Shown here piece by piece: positions 1,335-13,217 of a stretch of 13,327 nt of DNA (its first letter is position 1; each line of letters opens with the position of its first letter). Source of the DNA: an uncultured Gemmatimonadota bacterium (GTDB lineage Bacteria > Gemmatimonadota > Gemmatimonadetes > Gemmatimonadales > GWC2-71-9); assembly GCA_946480845.1 (NCBI GenBank), contig CAMLLJ010000060.1:1-13327 (forward strand). Direction: 5' to 3'. Both the position numbers and the translations under genes were made by a program. The notes below the pieces were generated by a model. The model was not told where the DNA came from. It saw nothing but the letters and a program-made list of their open reading frames with translations, and ran no database searches.

Positions 1335-2282
1335 CTGAATTCTCTGCCGCGGCGCGCGCCGGTCCTGCTGGCCGCGCTGCTCACGGGCGGCGTCCTGCAT
1401 GCGCAGGCGCCGCCTGCTTCGGCTGCGCTCACGGCGCGGCTCGCCGCGATCGCGGCCCCTGTCGGCTACGAGACCGCGCTCGCCGATACCCTGCTCGCCC
1501 TGGTCCCCGGCGCCCGGCGCGACCGGGCGGGGAACGTCGTCGTGGTGCGGGGGACGGGAACGCCGCGGCGGCTCATCGCCTGCCAGCTCGACGAGCCGGG
1601 CTGGATCGTCGGCGGCATCCGGCCCGACGGGTGGCTTACCGTCCGGCGGCTGCCGGGCCGGGTGCCGCCGCTCTTCGACCAGCAGATGGAAGGGCAGCTG
1701 GTGTCGCTCCTGGGCGACCGGGGCCAGGTGCCCGGCGTGGTCGGGGTGCGCTCGGTGCACCTCACGCGGGGGAGGGTCACCGGCGAGGGGCCGTTCACCT
1801 CGGATGACGCCTACGTGGACGTGGGCGCCCGGAGCGCGGCGGAAGCGCGCGCGCTCGGCATCCGTGAGACGACGCCGTTCGTGCTGGCCAAGCGCCCGCA
1901 TCGCTATGGCGATTCGCTCCTTGCCGCGCCGGTGGCGGGGAGGCGCGCGGGGTGTGCGGCGCTGGCGGCGGCGGGTTCGGCACGGCCCGCGCGCGGCAGC
2001 GTGACCCTCGCGTTCGTGGTGGAGCAGGGGCTCTCGGCCCGGGGACTGCTCACGGCCGTGAACGCCGCCGGGCCGTTCGAGGAAATCGTGCTGCTCGATA
2101 TGGGGGACGACGCCGGCATCGCAGCCCGGCCGGACTCCGCGCTCGGGCGCGCGGCGGGCGCGCCGGTCACGCGGTGGCGGCTCGGCGTACGGCATGCCGG
2201 CACGCCGGTGGAGACGGTGCGCCAGGGCGACGTGGCGGCGCTGGAGCGGCGGGTAGCGGCGTGGATCGGAGGGGGGCGATGA
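1335..2282 (+). CDS. Secreted M42-like peptidase homologue, probably catalytically inactive
   Basis: About 315 residues. The N-terminus reads as a good signal peptide: NSLPRR, then a hydrophobic core [11 protein letters not shown], then cleavage after HAQA. The rest follows the M42 aminopeptidase layout: the LDEPGW segment, a [13 protein letters not shown] segment, [18 protein letters not shown], and [11 protein letters not shown]. The residues that bind the two metals are mostly gone. The usual AHxDE is CQLDE (His to Gln, near residue 84), the DDRxG segment reads GRRAG, the catalytic Glu-Glu reads Gln-Gly, and the final HSPxE reads GTPVE. Only the LLD aspartate seems kept. No ATG, GTG or TTG is available before the signal peptide; CTG at 1335 or ATC at 1332 is the likely start, with GGGGGA at 1313-1318. 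The gene overlaps the next, intact M42 gene by 4 bases (ATGA). Pseudoenzyme status is inferred from alignment by eye. Confidence 0.72.
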
Positions 2283-3415
2283 GCGGCGCGATGCGGCGCG
2301 CGGGCGTGCGGGCGCTGGCCCCGCTGGTAGCCTCCGGCGTGCTGGCAGCAGGGCCCGGGGCCGCGTTCGCGGGTGCCGGGCTCGCGGCGCAGGAGATCGA
2401 GATCGCCGAAGCCGAGCGCACCCTCGAGACGCTGGTCGAGTCGTACGGGGCCTCCGGCATGGAAGGTCCGGTGCGCGAGCAGGTGCAGCGGATGCTCCCC
2501 GGCTGGGCAACGAGCGAGACCGACACCGCCGGCAACCTCTGGGTCCGGGTGGGCCGCGGCGATCCGGTGGTGGTGTTCGTGGCCCATCTCGACGAGATCG
2601 GCTTCCGGGTGAGCGCGGTGCGGGAAGACGGCACGCTCGAGCTGGAGCGCCTGGGCGGGTTCTTCCCGTCGGTCTTCGAGGGGCGGCCCGCGCTGGTGCA
2701 CACCGGCTCGGCCATGGTGCCGGGCATCATCCTGCCGCGCGACTCGCTCGGCGCTGCACCGGCGCGGACGCCACCCGCGCTGCGCGCCGACATCGGGGCC
2801 GGTTCGCCCGCCGCGGTGCGGGCGCGGGGCGTCGAGGTCGGCAGCACCGTCACCATGCCGAAGGAATACGCGCGGCTCGCCGGCACCCGGGCTACCGGCC
2901 GCTCCTTCGACGACCGCGTCGGCAGCACGGCGCTGGTGCTCGCGCTCCGCCATCTGGACCGGACCAAGCTCAGGCACCAGGTGATCTTCCTCTGGAGCGT
3001 GCGCGAGGAGGTGGGGCTCGAGGGCGCGGCGGCGGCGGCGCGGGCGCTGGGCACCACCGCCGCGCGGGTCCATGCGGTGGACACCTTCGTCTCGGCGGAC
3101 GCGCCCTTCGAGATCCAGTCCTTCGGCCACGCGCCGCTCGGCGCGGGCGCGGTCATCCGGGCGGTGGACAACAGCGCGGTGGCGCCGCGGCCGCTGGTGG
3201 ATTCGCTGCTCGCGCTTGCCGCCGAGCGGCGCATCCCGATCCAGCTCGGCGGCACCAACGGCGGCAACGACGGGTCGGCGTTCGCGCCGTGGGGCGTCCC
3301 CGACGTGGCCATCGCGTGGCCGCTCCGGTACTCGCATTCTCCCGCCGAGGTCGCCGACCTCGCGGATGTCGCGGCGCTGGCGCGGCTGGTCCGGGCCATC
3401 GCCGAGGAGTGGTAA
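2279..3415 (+). CDS. Secreted M42-family aminopeptidase
   Basis: A 378-residue metallopeptidase of the M42 family (glutamyl aminopeptidase / TET / CelM type), which removes N-terminal residues from peptides using two metal ions. All expected residues are present: His103 and Asp105 in AHLDEIGF, Asp211/Asp212 in SFDDRVG, the base Glu243 and ligand Glu244 in REEVG, Asp268 in AVDTF, and His353 in RYSHSPAEV. The N-terminus ([20 protein letters not shown], then an Ala-rich run to about residue 37) looks like a signal peptide. That would place this copy outside the cytoplasm, unusual for M42 enzymes, which are mostly cytosolic. The ATG at 2279 has a strong GGAGGGGGG upstream and overlaps the previous stop; ATG at 2291 is an alternative. 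The inactive paralogue directly upstream suggests that the two work as a pair, possibly in one oligomer. Confidence 0.87.
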
Positions 3416-3438: not shown

Positions 3439-3819
3439 ATGCCGCTCTCGATTCTCCTCGTGGACGATGACGACCTGGTGCGGCGGACGGTGGCGCGCAT
3501 GCTCCGGCTCGACGGGCATGAGGTGACCGAGGCCGGGTCCGGCGCGGAGGCGCTGGCGGCACTCGATGAGCGGGCCGCGGACCTGGTGCTGTGCGACGTC
3601 ATGATGCCCGACATGAACGGCTGCGACCTGGGCCGCCGCATCGCGAGCCGCCACCCGGAGCAGCGGCTCCTCTGGTACTCCGGGCACGTCTTCGCCTCCC
3701 TCTTCTCCTCGGGCATCTGCCCCGAGGACCTTCCCTTCATGCAGAAACCGTTCGGCGCGGAGCTGCTCCGGCAGCGGATCGCCGAGTGCCTGGCGGCGCC
3801 GGCGTACCGGTTCCGCTAG
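3439..3819 (+). CDS. Stand-alone receiver-domain response regulator
   Basis: A 126-residue protein made of one CheY-like receiver domain and no output domain. The acidic pocket is Asp9/Asp10 in LLVDDDD, the phosphorylated residue is Asp53 in [10 protein letters not shown], the switch Ser is Ser81 in LLWYSGH, and Lys103 lies in MQKPF, so phosphorylation chemistry is intact. After Ser81 the sequence [16 protein letters not shown] is longer and less regular than in typical CheY, where helix alpha4 would be. Such single-domain proteins act as phosphorelay intermediates or bind a partner. No histidine kinase lies in the window, so the partner is unknown. The start at 3439 gives the usual short lead to the first beta strand, although the ribosome binding site (GGGTAG) is weak. 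It lies 23 bases after the M42 gene and may be transcribed with it. Confidence 0.9.
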
Positions 3820-3883: not shown

Positions 3884-3899
3884 TATGCATTATGCATAA
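3883..3899. promoter_or_regulatory. Palindromic operator, probable ArgR binding site (ARG box)
   Basis: TTATGCATTATGCATAA is a perfect palindrome with 8-base arms around one central T. It is AT-rich, of about the size of an ARG box (around 18 bases), and sits between the likely -10 box and the first codons of argG, with the ATG at 3892 inside its right arm. It is not a close match to the E. coli consensus half TGAATWW, but ArgR sites vary between phyla. An ArgR protein is encoded at the end of the same operon. Binding here would block transcription initiation. I see no second copy of the palindrome in the window; ARG boxes often come in pairs, so this single copy is a weakness of the call. 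Confidence 0.65.
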
Positions 3900-5112
3900 T
3901 TCTCGCGGCTCCGGCTCTCGCGGCACCCTGGTCCTCGCCTTCTCCGGCGGCCTGGACACCTCCTACTGCGTACCCCGCCTCGCCGAGGACGGGTGGGCGG
4001 TGCACACGGCGTTCGTCAACACCGGCGGCACCACACCCGCGGAGGCCGCCGCCGTCCGCGCGCAGGCGCTGGCCGTCGGCTCGCTGGGCCACCACGAGAT
4101 CGACGCCCGGGCACAGGTCTTCGACCGGTTCGTCCGCTACCTCATCCAGGCCAACGTCCTCCGCGGCGAGGTCTATCCCCTCTCCGTAGCGGCCGAGCGC
4201 ACCCAGCAGGCGATCTCGGCGATCGAGGCGGCGCGCGAGATCGGCGCCGCGGCCGTCGCCCACGGCTCCACCGGCGCGGGCAACGACCAGGTCCGCTTCG
4301 ACATCGCCCTCCGGGTGCTGGCGCCCGACCTCGCCATCGTGACACCGATCCGCGACCAGGGCGTCCGCCGCGAGGAGGCGATCGCCTATCTCGAGGCGCG
4401 CGGCCTCCCCGTCCCGGCAAAGGCCGGCGCCTACAGCATCAACCGCGGCCTCTGGGGCACCACCTGGGGCGGCGGCTGGACCCACGACACCTGGGCGGGC
4501 CCGCCCGCCGAGCTGACCACGCCGCCCGCGGATGCGCCGGCACCGGCGGAGCATGTGATCGAATGGCGCGAGGGGCTGCCGGTGGCGCTCGACGGGCAGC
4601 CGCTCGAGGGCGCGGCGCTGGTGGACCGCCTTGGCGAGCTGGCCGCTTCCTTCGGCATCGGCCGCGGCATCCACGTCGGGGAGACCGCGCTCGGCATCAA
4701 GGGCCGCATCGGTTTCGAGGCGGGGGCGGCGCTCATGCTCATCGGAGCGCACCGCGAGCTGGAGAAGCTGGTGCTCACCAAGTGGCAGGCGTTCTGGAAG
4801 GACCAGCTCGGCCGCTTCTATGGCGACCGCCTGCACGAGGGCCATTACTTCGATCCGGCGCTCCGCGACATCGAGGCGCTCGTCGCCAGCTCGCAGCAGC
4901 GGGTGACCGGCGAGACCCGGCTCCTGCTCGCGCCCGGCCGCTTCCAGGTGGTGGGCACCCGGAGCCCCTTCTCGATGATGGACACCTCCGTGGCCACCTA
5001 CGGCGAGGAGAACCGGCTCTGGACCGGCGACGAGGCGCGCGCCTTCGCGCGCGTCGGCGCGATTCCGTCGCTGCTCGCCGCGCGTGCCGGCGCGGCGGGC
5101 GGGGAGGACTGA
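3892..5112 (+). CDS. argG: Argininosuccinate synthase
   Basis: A 406-residue enzyme that joins citrulline and aspartate with ATP to make argininosuccinate, the penultimate step of arginine synthesis in the cytoplasm. The N-type ATP pyrophosphatase loop AFSGGLDTS lies at residues 16-24, the GSTGAGNDQVRFD segment starts at residue 125, and SINRGLWG follows near 183. Length is normal for the family. The ATG at 3892 has no Shine-Dalgarno sequence in front of it, and the likely promoter is so close that the mRNA may be leaderless. The next in-frame conserved residues (LVLAFSGG) begin at residue 13, so no later start is attractive. The first codons also belong to the palindromic operator. First gene of the nine-gene arginine operon; its stop is one base before the next ATG. 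Confidence 0.96.
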   Translation: MHNSRGSGSRGTLVLAFSGGLDTSYCVPRLAEDGWAVHTAFVNTGGTTPAEAAAVRAQALAVGSLGHHEIDARAQVFDRFVRYLIQANVLRGEVYPLSVAAERTQQAISAIEAAREIGAAAVAHGSTGAGNDQVRFDIALRVLAPDLAIVTPIRDQGVRREEAIAYLEARGLPVPAKAGAYSINRGLWGTTWGGGWTHDTWAGPPAELTTPPADAPAPAEHVIEWREGLPVALDGQPLEGAALVDRLGELAASFGIGRGIHVGETALGIKGRIGFEAGAALMLIGAHRELEKLVLTKWQAFWKDQLGRFYGDRLHEGHYFDPALRDIEALVASSQQRVTGETRLLLAPGRFQVVGTRSPFSMMDTSVATYGEENRLWTGDEARAFARVGAIPSLLAARAGAAGGED

Positions 5113-5113
5113 C

Positions 5114-6190
5114 ATGGTCGTCACCACGCGCGTCCGGCTCGACCGGATCGCCTCGAGCACCCGGAACGCCCATCTCGCCGACGAAGTCATCGTCGGCGAC
5201 GAGATCATCGCGGCGGAGGGCTACGTGCTCGCGGTGCGGATCCTCGAGGACAAGCCGACCTACAACACCGTCGAGGACCTCACCGGCCGCATGGTCCCGC
5301 TCCGCGCGGGTGACGTGCTGGCCGGCACGCTGGGCGCGCGCCGCGCACTCCGCGGCTACGCCGGCGAGGTGCCCCCGCACCTGGCGATCGGGGACAGCGT
5401 GCACGTCCTCAACCTGGGCGGCATCCTCGGGCGCTGCACCTCGGTGAACCCGGAGATCGGCCCGCCGTTCCGCGCCGAGGTGCTGGGGGCGGTGCTCACC
5501 TTTCCGGCGCTCGGTGACCGGGTGGGGCGACCCGCGCACATCCGCGACGGCGCGGTGCCGCCGGCCGACTCGCTCGACACGCGGATCCCCGTGGTGTACG
5601 TGGCCGGCACCTGCATGAACGCAGGGAAGACGGTGGCGGCCGCGGAGCTGGTGCGCGGGCTCTCGCGCGGCGGCCTCCGGGTGGCGGCGGCCAAGCTCAC
5701 CGGCGTCTCGCTGATGCGCGATGCGCTGAGCATGCGGGACGCCGGCGCGATCGCGGCGCTCACCTTCAACGACGTGGGCGTGGCCACCACGCATGCGGGT
5801 GTCACCGTCGCGACGGCCAAGGGCATCTTCAACCGCCTCGCCGCCAGCAAGCCCGACGTGATCGTGGCCGAGCTGGGCGACGGCATCCTCGGCGAGTACG
5901 GCGTGCAGGACATCCTGCGCGACCCGGAGCTGGCCTCGGTCGGCGCGGCGTGGATCATGGCGGCGCCCGATCCGGTCGGCTGCTGGGGCGCGCAGCAGCT
6001 CATGCAGCACGAGTTCCGCCTGCCGATCACGGCGGTGACCGGTCCGGCGACCGACAACGATGTCGGCCAGAGCTACATCCGCGCGTCGCTGGGGCTCCCG
6101 GCGTGCAATGCGCGGCGGAACCCCGAGGGGCTGGTGGCGGCGGCGCGGCACTCGCTCGAGGCGTGGATCGCCGCGGACCGCGCGGCGTGA
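5114..6190 (+). CDS. Uncharacterised BioD-like P-loop protein of the arginine operon
   Basis: A 358-residue protein that I cannot assign to a known function. The C-terminal half is a P-loop NTPase domain: Walker A GTCMNAGKT at 165-173 after a beta strand VVYVA, then AAKLTG, then IVAELGDG with Glu253. This order resembles the SIMIBI proteins BioD, CobB, MobB and DUF1611 (GTxxNxGKT loop; Glu-Gly segment on a later strand). The N-terminal 150 residues look beta-rich, with PLRAGDVLAGTLGARRALRGY and VHVLNLGGILGRCTSVNP, and I recognise no domain. There is no signal peptide or membrane segment. ATG at 5114 is preceded by GGGGAGGA at good spacing. It lies one base after argG and overlaps argC by 4 bases (GTGA), so a role in arginine synthesis or its control is likely. 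Candidate roles include ATP-dependent activation of a carboxylate, or supply of acyl groups. None of these is shown by the sequence. Confidence 0.85.
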   Translation: MVVTTRVRLDRIASSTRNAHLADEVIVGDEIIAAEGYVLAVRILEDKPTYNTVEDLTGRMVPLRAGDVLAGTLGARRALRGYAGEVPPHLAIGDSVHVLNLGGILGRCTSVNPEIGPPFRAEVLGAVLTFPALGDRVGRPAHIRDGAVPPADSLDTRIPVVYVAGTCMNAGKTVAAAELVRGLSRGGLRVAAAKLTGVSLMRDALSMRDAGAIAALTFNDVGVATTHAGVTVATAKGIFNRLAASKPDVIVAELGDGILGEYGVQDILRDPELASVGAAWIMAAPDPVGCWGAQQLMQHEFRLPITAVTGPATDNDVGQSYIRASLGLPACNARRNPEGLVAAARHSLEAWIAADRAA

Positions 6191-7230
6191 GCGGGCTCCG
6201 GGTGGCCGTGGTCGGCGGCGCGGGGTACGCGGGCGGCGAGCTGCTGCGCCTCCTGCTGCAGCATCCCTCGGTGGCCGAGTGCGTGGCGACGAGCCGGAGC
6301 CAGGCGGGGAAGCCGATCGCCGAGGTGCATCCCGCGCTCGCGCCGCTCACCGACATGCGCTTCTCGGGGGAGACCGCGGCGGGGATCGCGCGCGGGCGGG
6401 ACGTGGTCTTCCTCGCGCTCGAGCACGGCGAGTCGTCGAAGATGATCGACGGCATCATCGAGGCGGGGCCGGGGATGATCGTGGACCTCGCGGCCGATTT
6501 CCGGGTCGCGGCGCCGCGGCTCTACGAGAAGTACTACGGGCCGCATGCGGCGCCCGAATCGGTGGGGCGGTTCACCTACGGGCTCGCGGACGTGCTGGGC
6601 GAGTCGCTCCGTGGGAAGGCCGCCATCGCAGCCCCGGGATGCTTCGCGACGGCGGCGCAGCTCGCGCTCTTTCCGCTCTCGGCGGCAGGGAAGGACATCG
6701 CGCCGGCGCTCTTCGCCGTGACCGGCTCGAGCGGCGCCGGTGTGCAGGCCAGGCCGACCACGCACCATCCTGCGCGGGCGCACAACCTCTTCGCCTACTC
6801 CGTGCTCTCGCACCGGCATGAGGCCGAGGTGCTCGGCGCCTGGCGCGAGTGGACCGGCCGCGACGGCGCGCAGGTGCGCCTCATGGCGCACTCGGGCCCC
6901 TTCGTGCGCGGCATCCACCTCACCCTGCACGCCTGGCTCGGCGAGGGTCATGCGCTCGGGCGCGACATCGCGGGCACCTACCGGCACGCGTACGCCGGCC
7001 GGCCCTTCGTGCGGATCACGGAGAAGCCGCCCGAGCTGACTCATGTGGTCGGCACCAACTACGCCCAGATCCATGCGGCGGCCAGCGAGGACGGAACGGA
7101 GATCCAGGTGATGGTGGTGCTCGACAATCTCATCAAGGGCGCCGGCGGGCAGGCGGTGCAGGCCATGAACCTCTCGCTCGGCCTACCGGAGACGGCGGGG
7201 CTCGAGGCCGTGGGGATGTTCCCGTGCTGA
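6187..7230 (+). CDS. argC: N-acyl-gamma-glutamyl-phosphate reductase
   Basis: A 347-residue NADPH-dependent reductase that turns N-acylglutamyl phosphate into the semialdehyde, the third step of arginine synthesis. The nucleotide-binding motif GGAGYAGGEL is at residues 10-19, the catalytic Cys is Cys152 in APGCFATA (usually NPGCYPT), and the partner His is His235 in HSGPFVRG. Segments such as THHPARAHN and HRHEAEV are typical of the ArgC/LysY family. The GTG start at 6187 overlaps the upstream stop as GTGA and gives the right distance to the Rossmann motif. The family normally acts on N-acetyl substrates. Because of the transcarbamylase two genes downstream the acyl group here could be succinyl; I cannot tell this from ArgC itself. 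Confidence 0.95.
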   Translation: MSGLRVAVVGGAGYAGGELLRLLLQHPSVAECVATSRSQAGKPIAEVHPALAPLTDMRFSGETAAGIARGRDVVFLALEHGESSKMIDGIIEAGPGMIVDLAADFRVAAPRLYEKYYGPHAAPESVGRFTYGLADVLGESLRGKAAIAAPGCFATAAQLALFPLSAAGKDIAPALFAVTGSSGAGVQARPTTHHPARAHNLFAYSVLSHRHEAEVLGAWREWTGRDGAQVRLMAHSGPFVRGIHLTLHAWLGEGHALGRDIAGTYRHAYAGRPFVRITEKPPELTHVVGTNYAQIHAAASEDGTEIQVMVVLDNLIKGAGGQAVQAMNLSLGLPETAGLEAVGMFPC

Positions 7231-8378
7231 CGCGCACGGCCGGCGCGGAGGCGCTGCTCCCGGTCTACGCGCAGATGCCGGTGCGGCCGGTGTCGGGCCG
7301 CGGCTCCTGGCTCACCGACGAGAACGGCGAGGAGTGGCTCGACGCCTACGGCGGGCATGCGGTGGCGTCCACCGGGCACAGCCATCCCGACGTGGTGCGC
7401 GCCATCGCGGAGCAGGCGGCGAAGCTGCTCTTCTACTCGTCGGTGCTCCCGCACCCCAACCGCGAGGAGCTGGCGGGCGCCATCGCGCGGCTCTCGCCCG
7501 ATCCGCTGGAGCGGGTCTTCTTCTGCAACTCGGGCGCCGAGGCGAACGAGAACGCGCTGCTGATCGCCCGGAAGATCACGGGGCGGCAGCGGATCGTCTC
7601 GCTCGCCGGTGGGTGGCATGGCCGCACCGTGGCCACGCTGGCCGTGACCGACGGCGAGAAGTACGAGGCCGGCGCCCGGCGCGCCGGGATGCCGCTCTCG
7701 GTGAAGGTGCCCTTCGACGATGCCGCGGCACTCGCCGCGGCGGTGGACAGCGCGGTGGCGGCGGTGATCATCGAGCCGGTGCAGGGGATGAGCGGCGCGC
7801 GTGACTGCGCGCCGGCGTTCCTCGCCGCCGCGCGGCGCATCTGCTCCGAGCGCGGCGCGATGCTGATCTTCGACGAGGTGCAGTGCGGCGTGGGCCGCTG
7901 CGGCGCGTTCACGGCGGCCGAGTCGTTCGGCGTCGTCCCCGACCTGCTCACCATGGCGAAGGGGCTCGGCTCGGGGATCCCGATCGCGGCGACGGTGACC
8001 ACCGGAGCGATCGCCGGCCACCTCCGCATCGGCGACCTCGGCAGCACCTTCGGCGGGGGTCCCGTGCCGACCGCCGCCGCGCTCGCGACCATCGGCGTGA
8101 TCGAGCGGGAGGGTCTGATCGAGAACGCGATGGCGGTGGGCGCGCAGCTCCGCGAAGGCGCACTCGCGCTGGGCGTGCCTGCCGTGCAGGGGCGGGGCCT
8201 CCTGCTCGGCCTCCGGCTCGGGCGGCCGGCCGCGGCGGTGCAGGCCGCGCTGTTCGAGCGGCGGATCCTCACCGGGACGGCGAGCGATCCCGAGGTGTTG
8301 CGGCTTATCCCGCCGCTCTCATTCAGCGCGCACGAGGCGGACCTCCTGCTCGCGGCGCTCGGCGAGGTGCTCCGGTGA
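7224..8378 (+). CDS. argD: N-acylornithine aminotransferase
   Basis: A 384-residue class III pyridoxal-phosphate aminotransferase that converts the N-acylglutamate semialdehyde to N-acylornithine with glutamate as amino donor. The phosphate-binding segment CNSGAEANENAL lies near residue 100, FDEVQCGVGRCG carries the PLP-ring Asp, and the Schiff-base lysine is Lys246 in MAKGLGSG. LGSTFGGGPVPTAAA is the expected phosphate loop from the other subunit. The GTG at 7224 overlaps the end of argC by 7 bases, with GGGGA at good spacing, and starts the protein at MLTRTAGAEALL. Related enzymes act on 4-aminobutyrate, ornithine or LysW-linked substrates, but the operon makes the arginine role secure. Confidence 0.95.
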   Translation: MLTRTAGAEALLPVYAQMPVRPVSGRGSWLTDENGEEWLDAYGGHAVASTGHSHPDVVRAIAEQAAKLLFYSSVLPHPNREELAGAIARLSPDPLERVFFCNSGAEANENALLIARKITGRQRIVSLAGGWHGRTVATLAVTDGEKYEAGARRAGMPLSVKVPFDDAAALAAAVDSAVAAVIIEPVQGMSGARDCAPAFLAAARRICSERGAMLIFDEVQCGVGRCGAFTAAESFGVVPDLLTMAKGLGSGIPIAATVTTGAIAGHLRIGDLGSTFGGGPVPTAAALATIGVIEREGLIENAMAVGAQLREGALALGVPAVQGRGLLLGLRLGRPAAAVQAALFERRILTGTASDPEVLRLIPPLSFSAHEADLLLAALGEVLR

Positions 8379-9403
8379 CCATGGTATCTGCAACGAAGCG
8401 CGACTACCTCGCCATGGAGCAGTGGAGCGGCGCCGAGATCGAGGCGCTGCTCGAGCTCGCGGCGCGGGTGAAGCGCGGCGAGGTGCCGGGCGGGCTCGAG
8501 AAGAAGGTGCTGGCCATGATCTTCATGGACCCGAGCCTCCGTACCCGCAGCAGCTTCGAGACGGCGATGTTCCTGCACGGCGGGCACGGCCTCGTGCTCG
8601 AGCCGGGGAAGGGGAGCTGGACGCTGGAGACCGAGCATGGCGTCGTCATGGACGGGACCTCGGTGGAGCATGTGGTCGAGGCGGCGCGCGTGCTCGGGCG
8701 CTATGCCGACGCGCTCGCGGTGCGCGCCTTTCCCAGGGGCACCGACTGGAGCGTCGAGCGGGAGGACCGGGTGATCAACGACTTCGCGCGCTACTGCGAG
8801 AAGCCGGTCATCAACATGGAGAGCACGCGCCGGCACCCGTGCCAGGGCCTCGCCGACGCGATGACCCTGCGCGAGAAGCTCGGCGACACGCGCGGCCGCC
8901 GCTTCGTGCTCGCCTGGGCCTGGCACCCCAAGGCGCTGCCCACGGCCGTGCCGGCGAGCGCGGCGATCGCCGGCGCGCGCATGGGGATGGACGTCGTGGT
9001 GGCGCGGCCGCCCGGGTACGACCTCGATCCTGACGACATGCGCACCATCGGCGCGGTGGCCGCGGAGTCGGGGGCGTCGGTCTCCGTGACCGAGGACCTC
9101 GATGCGGCGATGGAGGGAGCGGACGCCGTCTACGTGAAAGCGTGGGGCTCGATCGAGCGCTTCGGGAAGCCGGAGGAGGAGCGAGCCCTCCGCGAGGGCC
9201 GGCGTGACTGGCGGATGACCGCGGCACGCGCCCGGGCCACCCGCGGCGGCCGCGGCATCGTGATGCACTGCCTGCCCGTGCGCCGGAACGTCGAGATCGA
9301 CGACGCGGTGCTCGACGGCCCGCAGTCGGTCGTGGTGGACCAGGCCGAGAACCGGCTGCACGCGCAGCGCGCACTGCTGCTGAACCTGATCGGAGGGCGC
9401 TGA
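8375..9403 (+). CDS. argF': N-acylornithine carbamoyltransferase, probably N-succinylornithine-specific
   Basis: About 342 residues. Transfers a carbamoyl group from carbamoyl phosphate to N-acylornithine, giving N-acylcitrulline. The carbamoyl-phosphate loop is DPSLRTRSSF, followed by HPCQGLAD and HCLPVRRN, as in all transcarbamylases. The segments LVLEPGKGSW, VMDGTSVEH and FPRGTDWSVEREDRV place it with the Xanthomonas acetylornithine and Bacteroides succinylornithine enzymes, not with classical ArgF. At the discriminating Glu92 position (Xanthomonas numbering) it has Val (codon 8663-8665), and at Asn185 it has Pro (codon at 8939). Mutating Glu92 to Val, Pro, Ser or Ala is reported to turn the acetyl enzyme into a succinyl one. 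The GTG at 8375 makes a GTGA overlap and has GAGGTG at proper distance; ATG at 8381 is the alternative. Class is certain; acyl specificity is a strong inference. Confidence 0.92.
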   Translation: MTMVSATKRDYLAMEQWSGAEIEALLELAARVKRGEVPGGLEKKVLAMIFMDPSLRTRSSFETAMFLHGGHGLVLEPGKGSWTLETEHGVVMDGTSVEHVVEAARVLGRYADALAVRAFPRGTDWSVEREDRVINDFARYCEKPVINMESTRRHPCQGLADAMTLREKLGDTRGRRFVLAWAWHPKALPTAVPASAAIAGARMGMDVVVARPPGYDLDPDDMRTIGAVAAESGASVSVTEDLDAAMEGADAVYVKAWGSIERFGKPEEERALREGRRDWRMTAARARATRGGRGIVMHCLPVRRNVEIDDAVLDGPQSVVVDQAENRLHAQRALLLNLIGGR

Positions 9404-10338
9404 TGGCCATCGACCCCACCCGCGGCATCGCCGGGCTCAAGGGCGCGCTCCGCTACGTGCGCGAGTACCGCGACCACGTCTTCGTGGTGAAGCTGGGCGG
9501 CGACGTGCTCCGGGACGCGGAAGTGCTCGACCAGGTCGCGGCCCAGCTCGCGCTGCTCTCCTCGCTCAGCATCCGGCTCGTGGTGGTGCACGGCGGCGGG
9601 CCGCAGGCCTCGGCGCTGAGCCGCCGGCTGGGGCAGGAGCCGGAGATGGTGGCCGGCCGGCGCATCACCGACGATGCGGCGCTCGAGGTGGCCAAGATGG
9701 TCTATGCCGGCCAGCTCAACACCGACCTCATCGCCGCGCTGCGCGAGCACCGGGTGCAGGCGGTGGGGCTGAGCGGCGTGGACGCCGACCTGATCACGGC
9801 GCACCGGCGCCCGCCCGTCTCGGTGGTGGACGATGCCGGGGAGACCCGCACCGTGGACTACGGCCACGTGGGCGATATCGACCGGGTCGACCCGCGGGTG
9901 CTCACCACGCTCATGGAGTCGCGCTTCGTGCCGGTGGTGGCGAGCCTCGCGGGCGACGACGAGGGCAGCGTCTACAACGTGAACGCGGACACCGTGGCCG
10001 AGACGCTGGCCACGGCGCTCCGGGCGCAGAAGCTCATCTTCCTCACCGGTGCGCCCGGCGTGCTCCGGGACCGCGAGGACCCGTCCACGCTGGTCACCTT
10101 CGCCGACCCCGACGATCTCGCGGAGCTGATGCGCACCGGCGCGCTCGCCGGCGGGATGCGGCCCAAGGTCGAGGCGTGCATCCGCGCCGCGACGGGCGGG
10201 GTGGAGCGCACCCACATCATCGACGGCCGGGCGCCCGATGCGCTGCTGCTCGAGGTGTTCACCGGCTCGGGCTGCGGCACCATGATCGTCGGCAGAAAGG
10301 AGAAGGCGACCTACCTTGGCGTTGACCTGGCCGGCTGA
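9403..10338 (+). CDS. argB: N-acylglutamate kinase
   Basis: A 311-residue amino acid kinase that phosphorylates the gamma-carboxylate of N-acylglutamate, the second step of the pathway. KLGGDVL near residue 30 holds the ATP-binding Lys, and VHGGGPQ is the substrate glycine loop. GRRITDDAALEVAKMV, VNADTVAETLA and LIFLTGAPGVL follow in the usual order, then GGMRPKVEACIRA. It is longer than the roughly 258-residue E. coli enzyme: there are about 25 residues before the first beta strand (IAGLKGALRYVREYRDHV) and a short tail after CGTMIVG. N-terminal helices of this kind occur in arginine-inhibited hexameric kinases, so feedback control is possible but not shown. The ATG overlaps the previous stop by one base (TGATG) after GGAGGG. 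Its last 23 bases are shared with argE. Confidence 0.94.
   Translation: MAIDPTRGIAGLKGALRYVREYRDHVFVVKLGGDVLRDAEVLDQVAAQLALLSSLSIRLVVVHGGGPQASALSRRLGQEPEMVAGRRITDDAALEVAKMVYAGQLNTDLIAALREHRVQAVGLSGVDADLITAHRRPPVSVVDDAGETRTVDYGHVGDIDRVDPRVLTTLMESRFVPVVASLAGDDEGSVYNVNADTVAETLATALRAQKLIFLTGAPGVLRDREDPSTLVTFADPDDLAELMRTGALAGGMRPKVEACIRAATGGVERTHIIDGRAPDALLLEVFTGSGCGTMIVGRKEKATYLGVDLAG
10297..10306 (+). promoter_or_regulatory. Ribosome binding site for a TTG start of argE
   Basis: AAGGAGAAGG lies inside the 3' end of argB. GAAGG (10302-10306) is 9 bases before TTG at 10316, and AGGAG is 13 bases before it. A second in-frame TTG stands at 10322; no ATG or GTG is available before the conserved start of the protein. 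This site therefore decides that argE begins with TTG and overlaps argB. Confidence 0.55.
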
Positions 10339-11392
10339 GATCGAGCTGCTGCGCGAGCTGGTCGCCACGCCGTCGGTGAGCGGCGACGAGGCCGCCGTGG
10401 GCGCGCTGGCCGAGCGCACCGTGCGCGAGTGGGGCCTCGACGTGGTGCGCGACGACGCGGGCGTGCGGGTGACCGTGCCCGGCCGTGCGCCCGGGCCGAC
10501 GCTCGCGCTCGTGTCCCATCTCGACGTGGTCCCGCCCGGCGAAGGGTGGGCGCGCGACCCGTTCCGGCCCAGCATCGAAGAGGGCCGCCTCTACGGCCGC
10601 GGCTCCGGCGACGCCAAGGCGTCGGTGGCCGCGATGCTCTGGGCCGCGCGCGACGTGGCCGATGGCGGCGGCCCCGCGCGGGGACGGCTGCTCGTGATCC
10701 TCGGTTACGGAGAGGAGACGCGGAACACGTCGATGCCGGCGGCCCTCGAGCGCGCGGGCGAGGTGGACGCGGCGATCGTCGGCGAGCCGACCAACCTCGA
10801 GTTCGCGGTGGCCCAGCGCGGGCTCATGATGGTGGACCTCGTCGCGCGCGGCGACCAGCGGCACGCCGGCTACGCGGCCGACGACGGTTCGTTCACCAAC
10901 GCGGTGGTGGCCCTGGCGCGCGACCTGGTCCGGCTCGACGGGCTCTTCGCCGAGCGGGGCCACCCGGTGCTCGGCGCCCCGACGGTGACGCCGACGATGC
11001 TCGAGGCCGGCGTCAGCCGGAACGTCACGCCGCCCCAGGCGAAGGCCGTGCTCGACGTGCGCAGCACGCCGGCCTGGCCCCACGATGAGATCGCCGCGGT
11101 GCTGCGCCGCGAGCTGGCGAGCGAGGTGATCGTCACCTCCGACCGCCTGGTGCCGTGCGAGACGCCCGCCGGATCGCGCCTCGTGGCCGCCGCCGAGGCG
11201 GTGCGCACGCGCGCCCGGCGCTACGGCAGCCCCACCTGCTCCGACTGGGTCTTCCTTCGCCACCTCGATGCCTTCAAGTGCGGACCGGGCACCAGCCGGC
11301 GCTCGCACACGCCCGACGAGTACGTGGACCTGCACGAGGTCAGCGCCGCGCGCGAGTTCTACGCGCGGGTGGCGGAGGAGTACCTCCGGTGA
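10316..11392 (+). CDS. argE: M20-family deacylase, probable N-acylcitrulline deacylase
   Basis: A 358-residue metal-dependent hydrolase of the ArgE/DapE (M20) family. Metal and catalytic residues are all visible: His68 and Asp70 in SHLDVVP, Asp99 in GRGSGDAK, the base Glu133 and ligand Glu134 in GYGEETRN, Glu157 in GEPTNL, and His331 in RSHTPDEYV. In pathways with an N-acylornithine transcarbamylase the acyl group stays on until citrulline, so this enzyme should release citrulline from N-acylcitrulline rather than ornithine from N-acetylornithine. If the transcarbamylase is succinyl-specific, the substrate would be succinylcitrulline. The start is TTG (10316, or 10322). The end overlaps argH by 4 bases (GTGA). 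Amidohydrolases of other specificities share this fold, but the operon position makes the arginine role firm. Confidence 0.92.
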   Translation: MALTWPAEIELLRELVATPSVSGDEAAVGALAERTVREWGLDVVRDDAGVRVTVPGRAPGPTLALVSHLDVVPPGEGWARDPFRPSIEEGRLYGRGSGDAKASVAAMLWAARDVADGGGPARGRLLVILGYGEETRNTSMPAALERAGEVDAAIVGEPTNLEFAVAQRGLMMVDLVARGDQRHAGYAADDGSFTNAVVALARDLVRLDGLFAERGHPVLGAPTVTPTMLEAGVSRNVTPPQAKAVLDVRSTPAWPHDEIAAVLRRELASEVIVTSDRLVPCETPAGSRLVAAAEAVRTRARRYGSPTCSDWVFLRHLDAFKCGPGTSRRSHTPDEYVDLHEVSAAREFYARVAEEYLR

Positions 11393-12765
11393 AGCGCGCC
11401 GAGACGCTCTGGTCGCAGGGCAAGGCGCTGGACGCGCAGATGCTGGCGTACACCGTGGGGGACGATCCGGTCTGGGATGCGCGGCTGCTCCGCTGGGACA
11501 TCCTCGGGAGTCTCGGCCACGCCGAAGGGCTGCGGCGCTCGCGGCTGATCTCGGATGCGGAGCATGCGCGCATGCGCGGTGCCCTGCGCGGCGCGCTCCG
11601 GGCGGCCGCGGCCGGCAAGCTGCGCATCGGGCCGGCGCACGAGGACGTGCACTCGGCGGTCGAGCTCTGGCTGACTCGGCATCACGGTGCGGTCGGCGAG
11701 CGCCTGCACACCGGGCGATCGCGCAACGACCAGGTTGCGGTGGACCTGCGGCTCTTCCTCAAGGACCGGGTGCTCGCGCTGCACCAGCAGGCGGGGCTGG
11801 TCGCGGAGGCGCTGGCCGGGTTCGCGTCGGCGCACCGGCGGGTGCTCTGGCCCGGCTACACCCACCAGCGGAAGGGGATGCCGTCGTCCGCGGGGCTCTG
11901 GGCCGGCGCGTACGCGGAAGGGGTGCTCGATACGATGGAGTCGGTCGCCGGCATCTGGCCTGCCATCGACCGCTCGCCGCTGGGGAGTGCCGCGGGCTAC
12001 GGCGCCCCGCTCCCGCTCCGCCGCGAGGCCGCGGCGCGCGCACTGGGCTTCGGGGGACTCGACCGGAACGTGGCCACCGTGCAGAACGGGCGCGGCAAGC
12101 TCGAGGCGGCCGTGCTGTTCTGGTGCACGCAGCTGGGACACGAGCTCGGCCGGCTCGCCACGGACGTGATCCTGTTCAGCGCGGAGGAGTACGGGTACCT
12201 CGTGCTGCCGGCGGAGCTGGCGACCGGGTCGAGCATCATGCCGCAGAAGCGGAACCCCGACCTGTTCGAGCTGACCCGCGCGCGCGCCGCGGCGCTGCAC
12301 GGCGAGCTGGCGCAGGTCCTTGCCCTGTCTGCGAAGCTGGGCGGCGGGTACCATCGCGACTTCCAGCTCCTCAAGGCGCCGCTCATGCGCGGCACCGATG
12401 CCACGGGCCAGATGCTCGCGATGATGGCGGCGGCGATCCCCCGGCTCGGCGTGGATGCGGAGCGCGGCATGGCCGCGCTCGCGGGCCCGACGCTCGCCAC
12501 CGACGAGGTGATGCGGCGGGTAAGTGGCGGCGCGCCGTTCCGCCGCGCCTACCGCGAGGTGGCGGAGTCGGTGCGGCGCGGGGAGGAAATGCCCGCGCTC
12601 GGCGCGGCGGAGATCATCGCGGCGCGGAAGAGCACGGGGTCGCTCGGCAACCTGGGGCTCGGCGAGGTGCGCGCGCGGATCGCCGCGGCGCGCCGCTGGA
12701 ACCGGCGCGAACGTGGCCGCTTCGACGCGGCGATGCGCCGGCTCGCGGGCCGGGGGGCATCATGA
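11389..12765 (+). CDS. argH: Argininosuccinate lyase
   Basis: A 458-residue lyase that splits argininosuccinate into arginine and fumarate, the last step of the pathway. HTGRSRNDQVAVDLR begins at His107, the Thr-His pair of GYTHQRKGMPSS is at 158-159, and the flexible signature loop GSSIMPQKRNPD contains the catalytic Ser at 281-282. These are the three conserved regions of the fumarase/aspartase superfamily, and the length is normal. The Gln-Arg-Lys after the catalytic His differs from the usual Leu-Gln-Arg of proteobacterial enzymes. The GTG at 11389 overlaps the argE stop, has GGAGGAG upstream (11374-11380), and gives the expected N-terminus (LWSQGKALDAQMLAYT). The stop overlaps the argR start (ATGA). 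Confidence 0.95.
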   Translation: MKRAETLWSQGKALDAQMLAYTVGDDPVWDARLLRWDILGSLGHAEGLRRSRLISDAEHARMRGALRGALRAAAAGKLRIGPAHEDVHSAVELWLTRHHGAVGERLHTGRSRNDQVAVDLRLFLKDRVLALHQQAGLVAEALAGFASAHRRVLWPGYTHQRKGMPSSAGLWAGAYAEGVLDTMESVAGIWPAIDRSPLGSAAGYGAPLPLRREAAARALGFGGLDRNVATVQNGRGKLEAAVLFWCTQLGHELGRLATDVILFSAEEYGYLVLPAELATGSSIMPQKRNPDLFELTRARAAALHGELAQVLALSAKLGGGYHRDFQLLKAPLMRGTDATGQMLAMMAAAIPRLGVDAERGMAALAGPTLATDEVMRRVSGGAPFRRAYREVAESVRRGEEMPALGAAEIIAARKSTGSLGNLGLGEVRARIAAARRWNRRERGRFDAAMRRLAGRGAS

Positions 12766-13217
12766 GCGCGGACCGCCGCAAGCGGCACCTCAAGATCCTG
12801 GAGCTGATCTCGACCCGCGGGCTGCACACGCAGGAAGAGCTGGCGGCGGCGCTGGCGGAGGAGGGGTGGGAGGTCACCCAGTCGAGCGTGAGCCGCGACA
12901 TCGCGGCACTCGGACTGGTCAAGGTGGCGGGCGCCTACCGGAAGCCGGAGCCCGCGGCCGTGCGCTCGGATGACCCGGACGAGCGGCGGATCGCCGACGG
13001 CCTCATCGGCATCGACCCGGCGGGCAGCGCCCTCCTGGTCCTCCACACCCTCCCCGGCGAAGCGGGCCGCGTCGGCGCCGCCCTCGACCGCCTCGCCTGG
13101 CCCGACGTCGTCGGCACCCTCGCCGGCGACGACACCATCTTCGTGGCCGTCCGCGACGCCCCGGGCCGGCGCCGGGTCGCCAAGGCATTGGAGCGGCTCA
13201 CGCGCATAGAGACATAA
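12762..13217 (+). CDS. argR: Arginine repressor ArgR
   Basis: A 151-residue transcription factor that binds ARG boxes as a hexamer when arginine is present. The N-terminal winged helix (about 1-65) contains the recognition helix TQSSVSRDIAALGLVK, with Ser44 and Arg45 matching the DNA-contacting pair of E. coli ArgR. The C-terminal domain has the segment LHTLPGEAGRVGAALDR and the arginine-binding and trimer motif GTLAGDDTIFVAVRD, whose Asp-Asp contacts arginine. The linker around residues 66-75 (PEPAAVRSDD) is typical. ATG at 12762 overlaps the argH stop. As last gene of the operon it is presumably autoregulated through the palindrome at 3883-3899. Confidence 0.95.
   Translation: MSADRRKRHLKILELISTRGLHTQEELAAALAEEGWEVTQSSVSRDIAALGLVKVAGAYRKPEPAAVRSDDPDERRIADGLIGIDPAGSALLVLHTLPGEAGRVGAALDRLAWPDVVGTLAGDDTIFVAVRDAPGRRRVAKALERLTRIET

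Follow-up and report, generated by a model that had tools for sequence, protein, structure and literature searches.

A P-loop protein gene between argG and argC as a candidate for the first step of arginine synthesis in Gemmatimonadota and other bacteria

The window analyzed here, a 13,327-nucleotide stretch of contig CAMLLJ010000060.1 (assembly GCA_946480845.1) from an uncultured Gemmatimonadota bacterium, carries an arginine operon in the order argG, P-loop protein gene, argC, argD, argF', argB, argE-like M20 hydrolase gene, argH and argR. The P-loop gene at 5114-6190 likely accounts for the first step of arginine synthesis. In its full form our proposal, to which we assign a probability of roughly 0.6, is that the P-loop protein encoded upstream of argC catalyses the missing first step, the N-succinylation of L-glutamate, in a predicted succinylated pathway. 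The first-pass annotation of this DNA had suggested a role in making or delivering the acyl-glutamate starting compound, or else in regulation. The former is now the best-supported reading and has been refined to N-succinyl-L-glutamate through residues of ArgF'; the N-succinyl-L-glutamate synthase activity itself is inferred from context.

The gene at 5114-6190 and its neighborhood

The P-loop gene is a 358-aa open reading frame (ORF) with zero internal stops. Its ATG at 5114 follows the argG stop codon (5110-5112) after a 1-base gap, and the GTG start of argC at 6187 overlaps its TGA (6188-6190) by 4 bases. The length of the ORF, both junctions and the position of the Walker A motif had all been read correctly by the first-pass annotation. 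The features of the gene are as follows.

5114..6190, + strand: gene for the candidate first-step P-loop protein, 358 aa, ATG start, putative role
5114..5578, + strand: N-terminal beta-rich domain, residues 1-155, no solved relative found
5579..6187, + strand: C-terminal P-loop domain, residues 156-358, with the fold of DUF1611, BioD and CTP synthase according to the predicted structure and fold matches
5606..5632, + strand: BioD-like Walker A motif GTCMNAGKT, residues 165-173, with GKT in 27/27 family rows of the alignment
5693..5695, + strand: Lys194, aligned by HMMER with BioD Lys37 at a non-significant E of 0.2, Lys in 27/27 family rows
5870..5872, + strand: Glu253, conserved acid of the next motif, present in all 37 alignment rows, DUF1611 included

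Homologues of the protein were detected at E≤0.001 for 3274 of 7997 scored candidates, which rules out a chance ORF, and identity was at least 78% for all 120 homologues among the matches listed. In their sources, these homologues are named 'hypothetical protein'. Nothing in Pfam or NCBIfam scored over cut-off for the P-loop protein, which had sub-threshold P-loop matches only. No GNAT family appeared among its Pfam matches up to E 1, the Pfam ArgJ domain (PF01960) did not match it, and the viral contigs searched contained no relative.

We compared gene neighborhoods in a close set made up of the best 80 of 94 relatives from a scan of one-genome-per-species contigs. According to record titles, this set covers Gemmatimonadota, Myxococcota, Elusimicrobiota, Acidobacteriota (many Geothrix and other Holophagaceae), Deltaproteobacteria, one Planctomycetota and gammaproteobacterial metagenome-assembled genomes. 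Arginine genes adjoin the P-loop gene in 80/80 loci. Directly upstream lies argG in 77, argB in one and nothing in the available contig in two; directly downstream lies argC in 75/75 readable loci, the other five ending within 255 bases. Even the permuted cluster of Holophagaceae (argD-argF'-argB-argE-argH-argG-gene-argC) keeps the P-loop gene next to argC. Since these 80 loci are the closest relatives, sampling was deepened with a profile, which matched in 44/149 Acidobacteriota and 26/121 Gemmatimonadota genomes. From these samples 20 Acidobacteriota and 17 Gemmatimonadota regions, picked for lower scores and exceptions, were fetched; the carriers G156 and G282 (partial, contig edge) lie outside them. 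The gene adjoined argC in 19/19 readable divergent clusters (14 from Acidobacteriota at 231-382 bits, five from Gemmatimonadota at 361-414 bits), and a sixth Gemmatimonadota copy is cut by a contig end after argG. The link to arginine metabolism first proposed from the tight coupling in the window is thus borne out in both sets. Nine minimal clusters (L105-L109 and L120-L123) hold the P-loop gene with argC, argD and argB alone, apart from an additional argR in L120-L123; one of them, L108, is a 6-kb contig. If the P-loop gene provides the first step, these minimal clusters correspond to the acylglutamate steps.

Known first enzymes and the predicted acyl group

The other genes of the operon are listed below.

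3892..5112, + strand: argG, argininosuccinate synthase (Pfam/NCBIfam)
6187..7230, + strand: argC, N-acylglutamyl-phosphate reductase (Pfam/NCBIfam)
7227..8378, + strand: argD, acylornithine transaminase, start approximate (Pfam/NCBIfam)
8375..9403, + strand: argF', N-acylornithine carbamoyltransferase (NCBIfam and three succinyl-type residues)
8663-8665, 8939-8941 and 9293-9295, + strand: argF' residues Val97, Pro189 and Glu307, succinyl type
9403..10338, + strand: argB, N-acylglutamate kinase, without acetyltransferase domain (Pfam/NCBIfam)
10316..11392, + strand: argE-like M20 hydrolase, candidate desuccinylase, start approximate (Pfam/NCBIfam; putative role)
11389..12765, + strand: argH, argininosuccinate lyase, without fused acetyltransferase (domain search)
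12762..13217, + strand: argR, arginine repressor (Pfam/NCBIfam)

Just 5' of the operon, the window also encodes a stand-alone response-regulator receiver domain (3442-3819), preceded by two neighboring ORFs with M42-type aminopeptidase matches (1542-3415; 64 and 199 bits).

Pfam and NCBIfam searches revealed neither argJ nor a GNAT among the operon genes of the window. ArgB (311 aa) is a kinase domain alone and ArgH (458 aa) a lyase domain alone, and the idea of a GNAT fused to either protein was dropped. A LysW-type carrier route was likewise dropped, with LysX and LysW left out of the searches: the window ArgB scored 231.6 bits as ArgB (cut-off 151.3), against 166.1/223 for the best LysW-type kinase model. 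The lack of a recognizable first enzyme noted by the first-pass annotation also extends to other genomes, in which ArgJ was absent from every carrier tested, a carrier in the phylum samples being a genome with a profile match at about 228 bits or more. Of the 80 close-locus genomes, 49 entered the ArgJ and NAGS searches (31 stayed outside) beside 14 control genomes, with no completeness values for the genomes. ArgJ (PF01960) was found in 0/49 carriers and 10/14 controls, and in 0/23 further carriers with divergent copies. Within the phylum samples, it occurred in 0/18 carriers and 51/103 other genomes of Gemmatimonadota (p 3e-5) and in 0/36 carriers and 47/113 others of Acidobacteriota (p 2e-7; Fisher tests, kinship ignored), or 0/54 carriers against 98/216 other genomes altogether. 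ArgJ and the P-loop gene are therefore mutually exclusive in these samples. Genomes with distant copies only do have ArgJ, two per phylum (G284, G306; G068, G110 (20-bit match)).

Acetyltransferase models gave a similar picture over their cut-offs. Full-length NAGS (TIGR01890) was found in 0/49 carriers and 1/14 controls, and below cut-off it matched in 49/49 carriers, in 48 of them via a kinase half that is presumably ArgB. NF005840, a short GNAT model, passed in 0/49 carriers and 3/14 controls. Model NF005921 passed in 0/49 carriers, a weak zero since none of the 14 controls was positive either. Six carriers (G007, G009, G016, G020, G021 and G041) had no match to either GNAT model at E≤0.001, and TIGR01890 gave a single kinase-half match there. 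The P-loop protein would fill the same step as ArgA, NAGS-K, S-NAGS, ArgA2/BT3761 and ArgJ, and it has no GNAT or ArgJ sequence match. The literature matches listed, with subscription journals and preprints mostly outside the scope of the search, name no P-loop first-step enzyme of arginine synthesis.

The nature of the acyl group was predicted from ArgF'. According to the accessible portion of PMC4581275, N-acetylornithine transcarbamylase is marked by Glu92, Asn185 and Lys302, and N-succinylornithine transcarbamylase by Ala, Ser, Pro, Val or Gln at site 92, Pro at site 185 and Val, Ile or Glu at site 302. With site numbering carried over via the X. campestris enzyme, the window ArgF' has Val, Pro and Glu at these sites, in agreement with the succinyl-type rule. 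The check covered the window and the 60 close loci with a complete ArgF' (20 of the 80 loci are without one): site 92 was Ala in 29, Val in 21, Pro in five, Gln in three, Ser in two and Thr in one, never Glu; site 185 was Pro in 61/61; and site 302 was Glu in 51, Val in nine and Lys in one. A further 29 succinyl-type Acidobacteriota loci, six genomes of which are shared with the first set, had at site 92 Ala (17), Thr (8), Pro (2), Val (1) or Ile (1), at site 185 Pro in 29/29, and at site 302 Glu, Val or Ile in 28 and Lys in one. Thr and Ile at site 92 fall outside the published list, yet they are not Glu. On the basis of these residues, the intermediates of the arginine pathway are predicted to be succinylated, like those in Bacteroides. 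The NCBIfam equivalog NF003384 labels the window ArgF' class N-acetylornithine carbamoyltransferase, the residues at the three sites notwithstanding, and names derived from it may be wrong in these phyla.

The succinylated arginine pathway of Bacteroides has the succinyl-type ArgF' residues in common with the window, going by the available parts of PMC4581275 and PMC7311316. Its proposed first enzyme, unlike the P-loop protein, is a GNAT, BT3761/ArgA2 (PMC7311316, PMC9026213, as far as their accessible text goes), and excerpts of a 2015 review describe the glutamate-succinylating gene as then unidentified (PMC4490483).

With the cut-off of NF003384 defining the ArgF' class, the P-loop gene accompanied ArgF' in 12 of the 13 positive genomes among 121 Gemmatimonadota, the contig of the thirteenth (G297) ending inside argC, and in 30 of the 34 positive genomes among 149 Acidobacteriota. 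Thirty of these 34 ArgF' were residue-checked, with G112, G169, G100 and G144 outside the check. The four Acidobacteriota non-carriers are G113, G130, G186 and G177. In G130, a contig end lies inside argC. G113 has the only acetyl-type ArgF' (Glu, Asn, Lys) among the 30 checked, and its ArgB (L167:6068-7384) is a fusion of 438 aa that joins a kinase to a NAGS acetyltransferase domain (PF04768, 129.9 bits), which gives this genome a first enzyme of its own. A kinase-NAGS fusion and an acetyl-type ArgF' are described in Xanthomonas in a like arrangement.

The P-loop protein could also be a first-step enzyme whose acyl group is not generally succinyl, making N-acetylglutamate or another N-acylglutamate with a donor that varies by clade. 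We consider this improbable. Clusters L105-L109 and L120-L124 lack ArgF', and the five Gemmatimonadota clusters among those without ArgF' score as ordinary carbamoyltransferase (177-186 bits, cut-off 288), as a varying donor would allow; the sole acetyl-type cluster, that of G113, is without the P-loop gene, and site 92 is not Glu and site 185 is Pro in the window and 60/60 loci. Ten of the 12 carriers without ArgF' over cut-off were fetched, and argC adjoins the P-loop gene in 10/10, which indicates that the gene is tied more closely to the acylglutamate steps than to ArgF'.

ArgF'-like genes at 222-237 bits in G212, G295 and G308 were not counted as succinyl-type; by eye, their neighbors are hydantoinase- or deaminase-like and not arginine genes. 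G230, in the same band, lies on a 6-kb contig that yielded no other arginine gene. In three Gemmatimonadota genomes, ArgF'-like genes of this 222-237-bit band (L125, L127 and L128) lie beside an M20 gene and, by eye, hydantoinase- or deaminase-like genes, perhaps YgeW-type clusters.

Fold, conserved residues and proposed chemistry

The structure model of the P-loop protein has a pLDDT of 93 and a pTM of 0.90. Residues 1-130 are mainly strand with one short helix, and residues 156-358 form an alpha/beta P-loop domain. The N-terminal half had been called beta-rich and unassignable from sequence; the model is mostly strand there, and no solved relative was found. With high confidence, the model gives the C-terminal half a P-loop domain of the kind known from DUF1611/DgcN, BioD and CTP synthase. 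Its nearest structures in the VIA lists, in which the absence of other families is uninformative, are DUF1611 proteins including DgcN. A PDB sequence search with the single protein gave no match, and a PDB profile search gave BioD alone (E 0.2). The best sub-threshold Pfam match was the DUF1611 P-loop domain PF07755 (17.8 bits, cut-off 25), also the commonest match in 40 diverse relatives (35/40 at E up to 1, best E 2e-4); NCBIfam bioD TIGR00347 reached 13.2 bits, below its cut-off of 83.3. DUF1611_N (PF17396), carried by 120 DUF1611 proteins among the matches listed, did not match the P-loop protein up to E 1 and was absent from the families listed for the 40 relatives. The protein resembles DUF1611/DgcN (PDB 7xrj, 2obn, 2g0t) in its P-loop fold and differs in its beta-rich N-terminal domain, which is not DUF1611_N. 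From BioD and CTP synthase it differs by this extra N-terminal domain and by its operon.

DgcN is a D-glutamate N-acetyltransferase according to the title of PDB 7xrj, the available excerpts of PMC12363236 and PMC10845958, and names given in source records. An alignment of 37 sequences comprised 18 arginine-type proteins, nine distant relatives and 10 DUF1611 proteins. GKT, together with a Lys about 21 residues further on, is kept in 27/27 arginine-type and distant rows, whereas the DUF1611 rows have GKM or GKR in 10/10 and a variable Lys column. DgcN N-acetylates D-glutamate, a reaction that we take to be related to the proposed one; the nearest named family thus has no unrelated reaction that would speak against the acyl-glutamate idea. 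The P-loop family also differs from DUF1611 in lying in arginine clusters.

The kept Thr and Lys point to ATP, not coenzyme A (CoA), as the driver of the reaction. In M. tuberculosis BioD, the nucleotide is bound through its phosphates by the P-loop (Gly8-Thr16), and Lys37 is found at the substrate site, according to the accessible part of PMC8659263. In the proposed mechanism, the P-loop protein would bind L-glutamate and succinylate its alpha-amino group. On the model of BioD and CTP synthase, ATP bound at GTCMNAGKT would, together with Lys194 and Glu253, convert succinate into an activated acyl phosphate, succinyl phosphate, which the amino group of glutamate would then attack. N-succinylglutamate would feed ArgB, ArgC, ArgD and ArgF', and succinate would be released at the N-succinylcitrulline stage by the ArgE-like hydrolase. 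Given a first-step role, use of ATP is the least certain part, and we favor it only slightly. The complete model of an ATP-dependent N-succinyl-L-glutamate ligase, in which a BioD-like P-loop and a new beta domain let glutamate capture succinyl phosphate, is tentative. The same role with other chemistry, a succinyl-CoA (acyl-CoA):L-glutamate N-succinyltransferase whose P-loop holds the CoA phosphates as may happen in DgcN, is unlikely: the family keeps its P-loop Thr throughout, a residue replaced by Met or Arg in all the DUF1611 rows and absent (Met/Arg) from three solved DUF1611 chains, and this points to Mg-ATP.

Distant relatives, opposing evidence and implications

Eleven fetched copies at 103-150 bits (six from Acidobacteriota, five from Gemmatimonadota) form a more distant branch, and 11/11 lie away from arginine clusters. 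Homologues occurring mostly away from arginine genes would have undermined the original link; this is not the case above about 230 profile bits and holds for the copies fetched in the 100-150-bit range. An M20-type hydrolase gene adjoins six of the 11 (L115 and L130-L134; tblastn or Pfam), some of them also beside a flavin-reductase-like gene. In L132 and L133, a nearby enolase-superfamily protein passes the TIGR01928 (o-succinylbenzoate synthase) cut-off; L133 has, in addition, a gene matching GNAT below threshold, which may be the acylating enzyme there. No such neighbor was found in the fetched regions of L112-L114, L116 and L117. N-succinylamino-acid racemases are among the related enzymes of the enolase family (PMC8142540, in its available part). 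The pairing of DgcN with DgcA resembles the surroundings of these distant relatives. Such surroundings fit a family working on N-acyl amino acids, and L115 and L130-L134 are possible clusters for N-succinyl amino acid conversion.

Several observations weigh against an N-succinylating first-step enzyme. As for the fold, the VIA Z of DgcN 7xrj is tied with CTP synthase and BioD, plain Foldseek ranks signal recognition particle (SRP) GTPases at the top, hhalign to DUF1611 reaches just 66.5%, and structure searches matched no solved fold to the N-terminal domain. Lys in the Lys194 column also occurs in two of the 10 DUF1611 rows and is not unique to the family. ArgF' falls below cut-off in 12/54 carriers (6/18 Gemmatimonadota, 6/36 Acidobacteriota), and since these have no class ArgF' over cut-off, succinyl is unproven in them. 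The Fisher tests take no account of kinship. Weak GNAT matches occur in most carriers (NF005840 in 42/49, NF005921 in 30/49), leaving a diverged GNAT possible in general, and the GNAT searches consisted of three NAGS-type models, without the Bacteroides-type BT3761. Lastly, G186 and G177 (L168 and L169) have a succinyl-type ArgF' and argR directly followed by argC, with no P-loop gene and no recognized first enzyme in their arginine clusters. In L168, argF' and argB flank a 181-aa ORF that belongs to no known family.

Some of these points would also suit a regulator or assembly factor, a P-loop switch sensing nucleotide or arginine, with step 1 performed by an unrecognized GNAT elsewhere: among the protein's relatives by fold, SRP GTPases, HypB and MeaB-type proteins act as switches or chaperones, GNAT-like matches are widespread in carriers, and G186 and G177 manage without the gene. 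We judge a regulator improbable, as mutual exclusion with ArgJ fits an acylglutamate enzyme better, the gene is missing beside the one kinase-NAGS fusion found, and the minimal clusters pair it with just argB, argC and argD.

Glutamate becomes committed to arginine at the first enzyme, which is usually where inhibition by arginine controls the pathway. In whole clades, among them cultured Geothrix species, no known first enzyme was recognized; automatic annotation of these bacteria would therefore show a gap in the pathway or classify them as auxotrophs. If an N-succinylating P-loop enzyme is confirmed, it would be an unrelated solution for a step with known replacements (ArgA, ArgJ, NAGS-K, C-NAGS, LysW), it would extend the succinylated pathway beyond Bacteroidetes as a new route into arginine, and it would give a name to a family of thousands of proteins called 'hypothetical protein'. 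Should the enzyme prove to be an ATP-dependent ligase, Gemmatimonadota, Holophagae, Elusimicrobiota and others would begin arginine synthesis with free succinate and ATP, not acyl-CoA. Their first-step enzyme would then be related neither to GNATs nor to ArgJ and would found a family absent from Pfam and NCBIfam.
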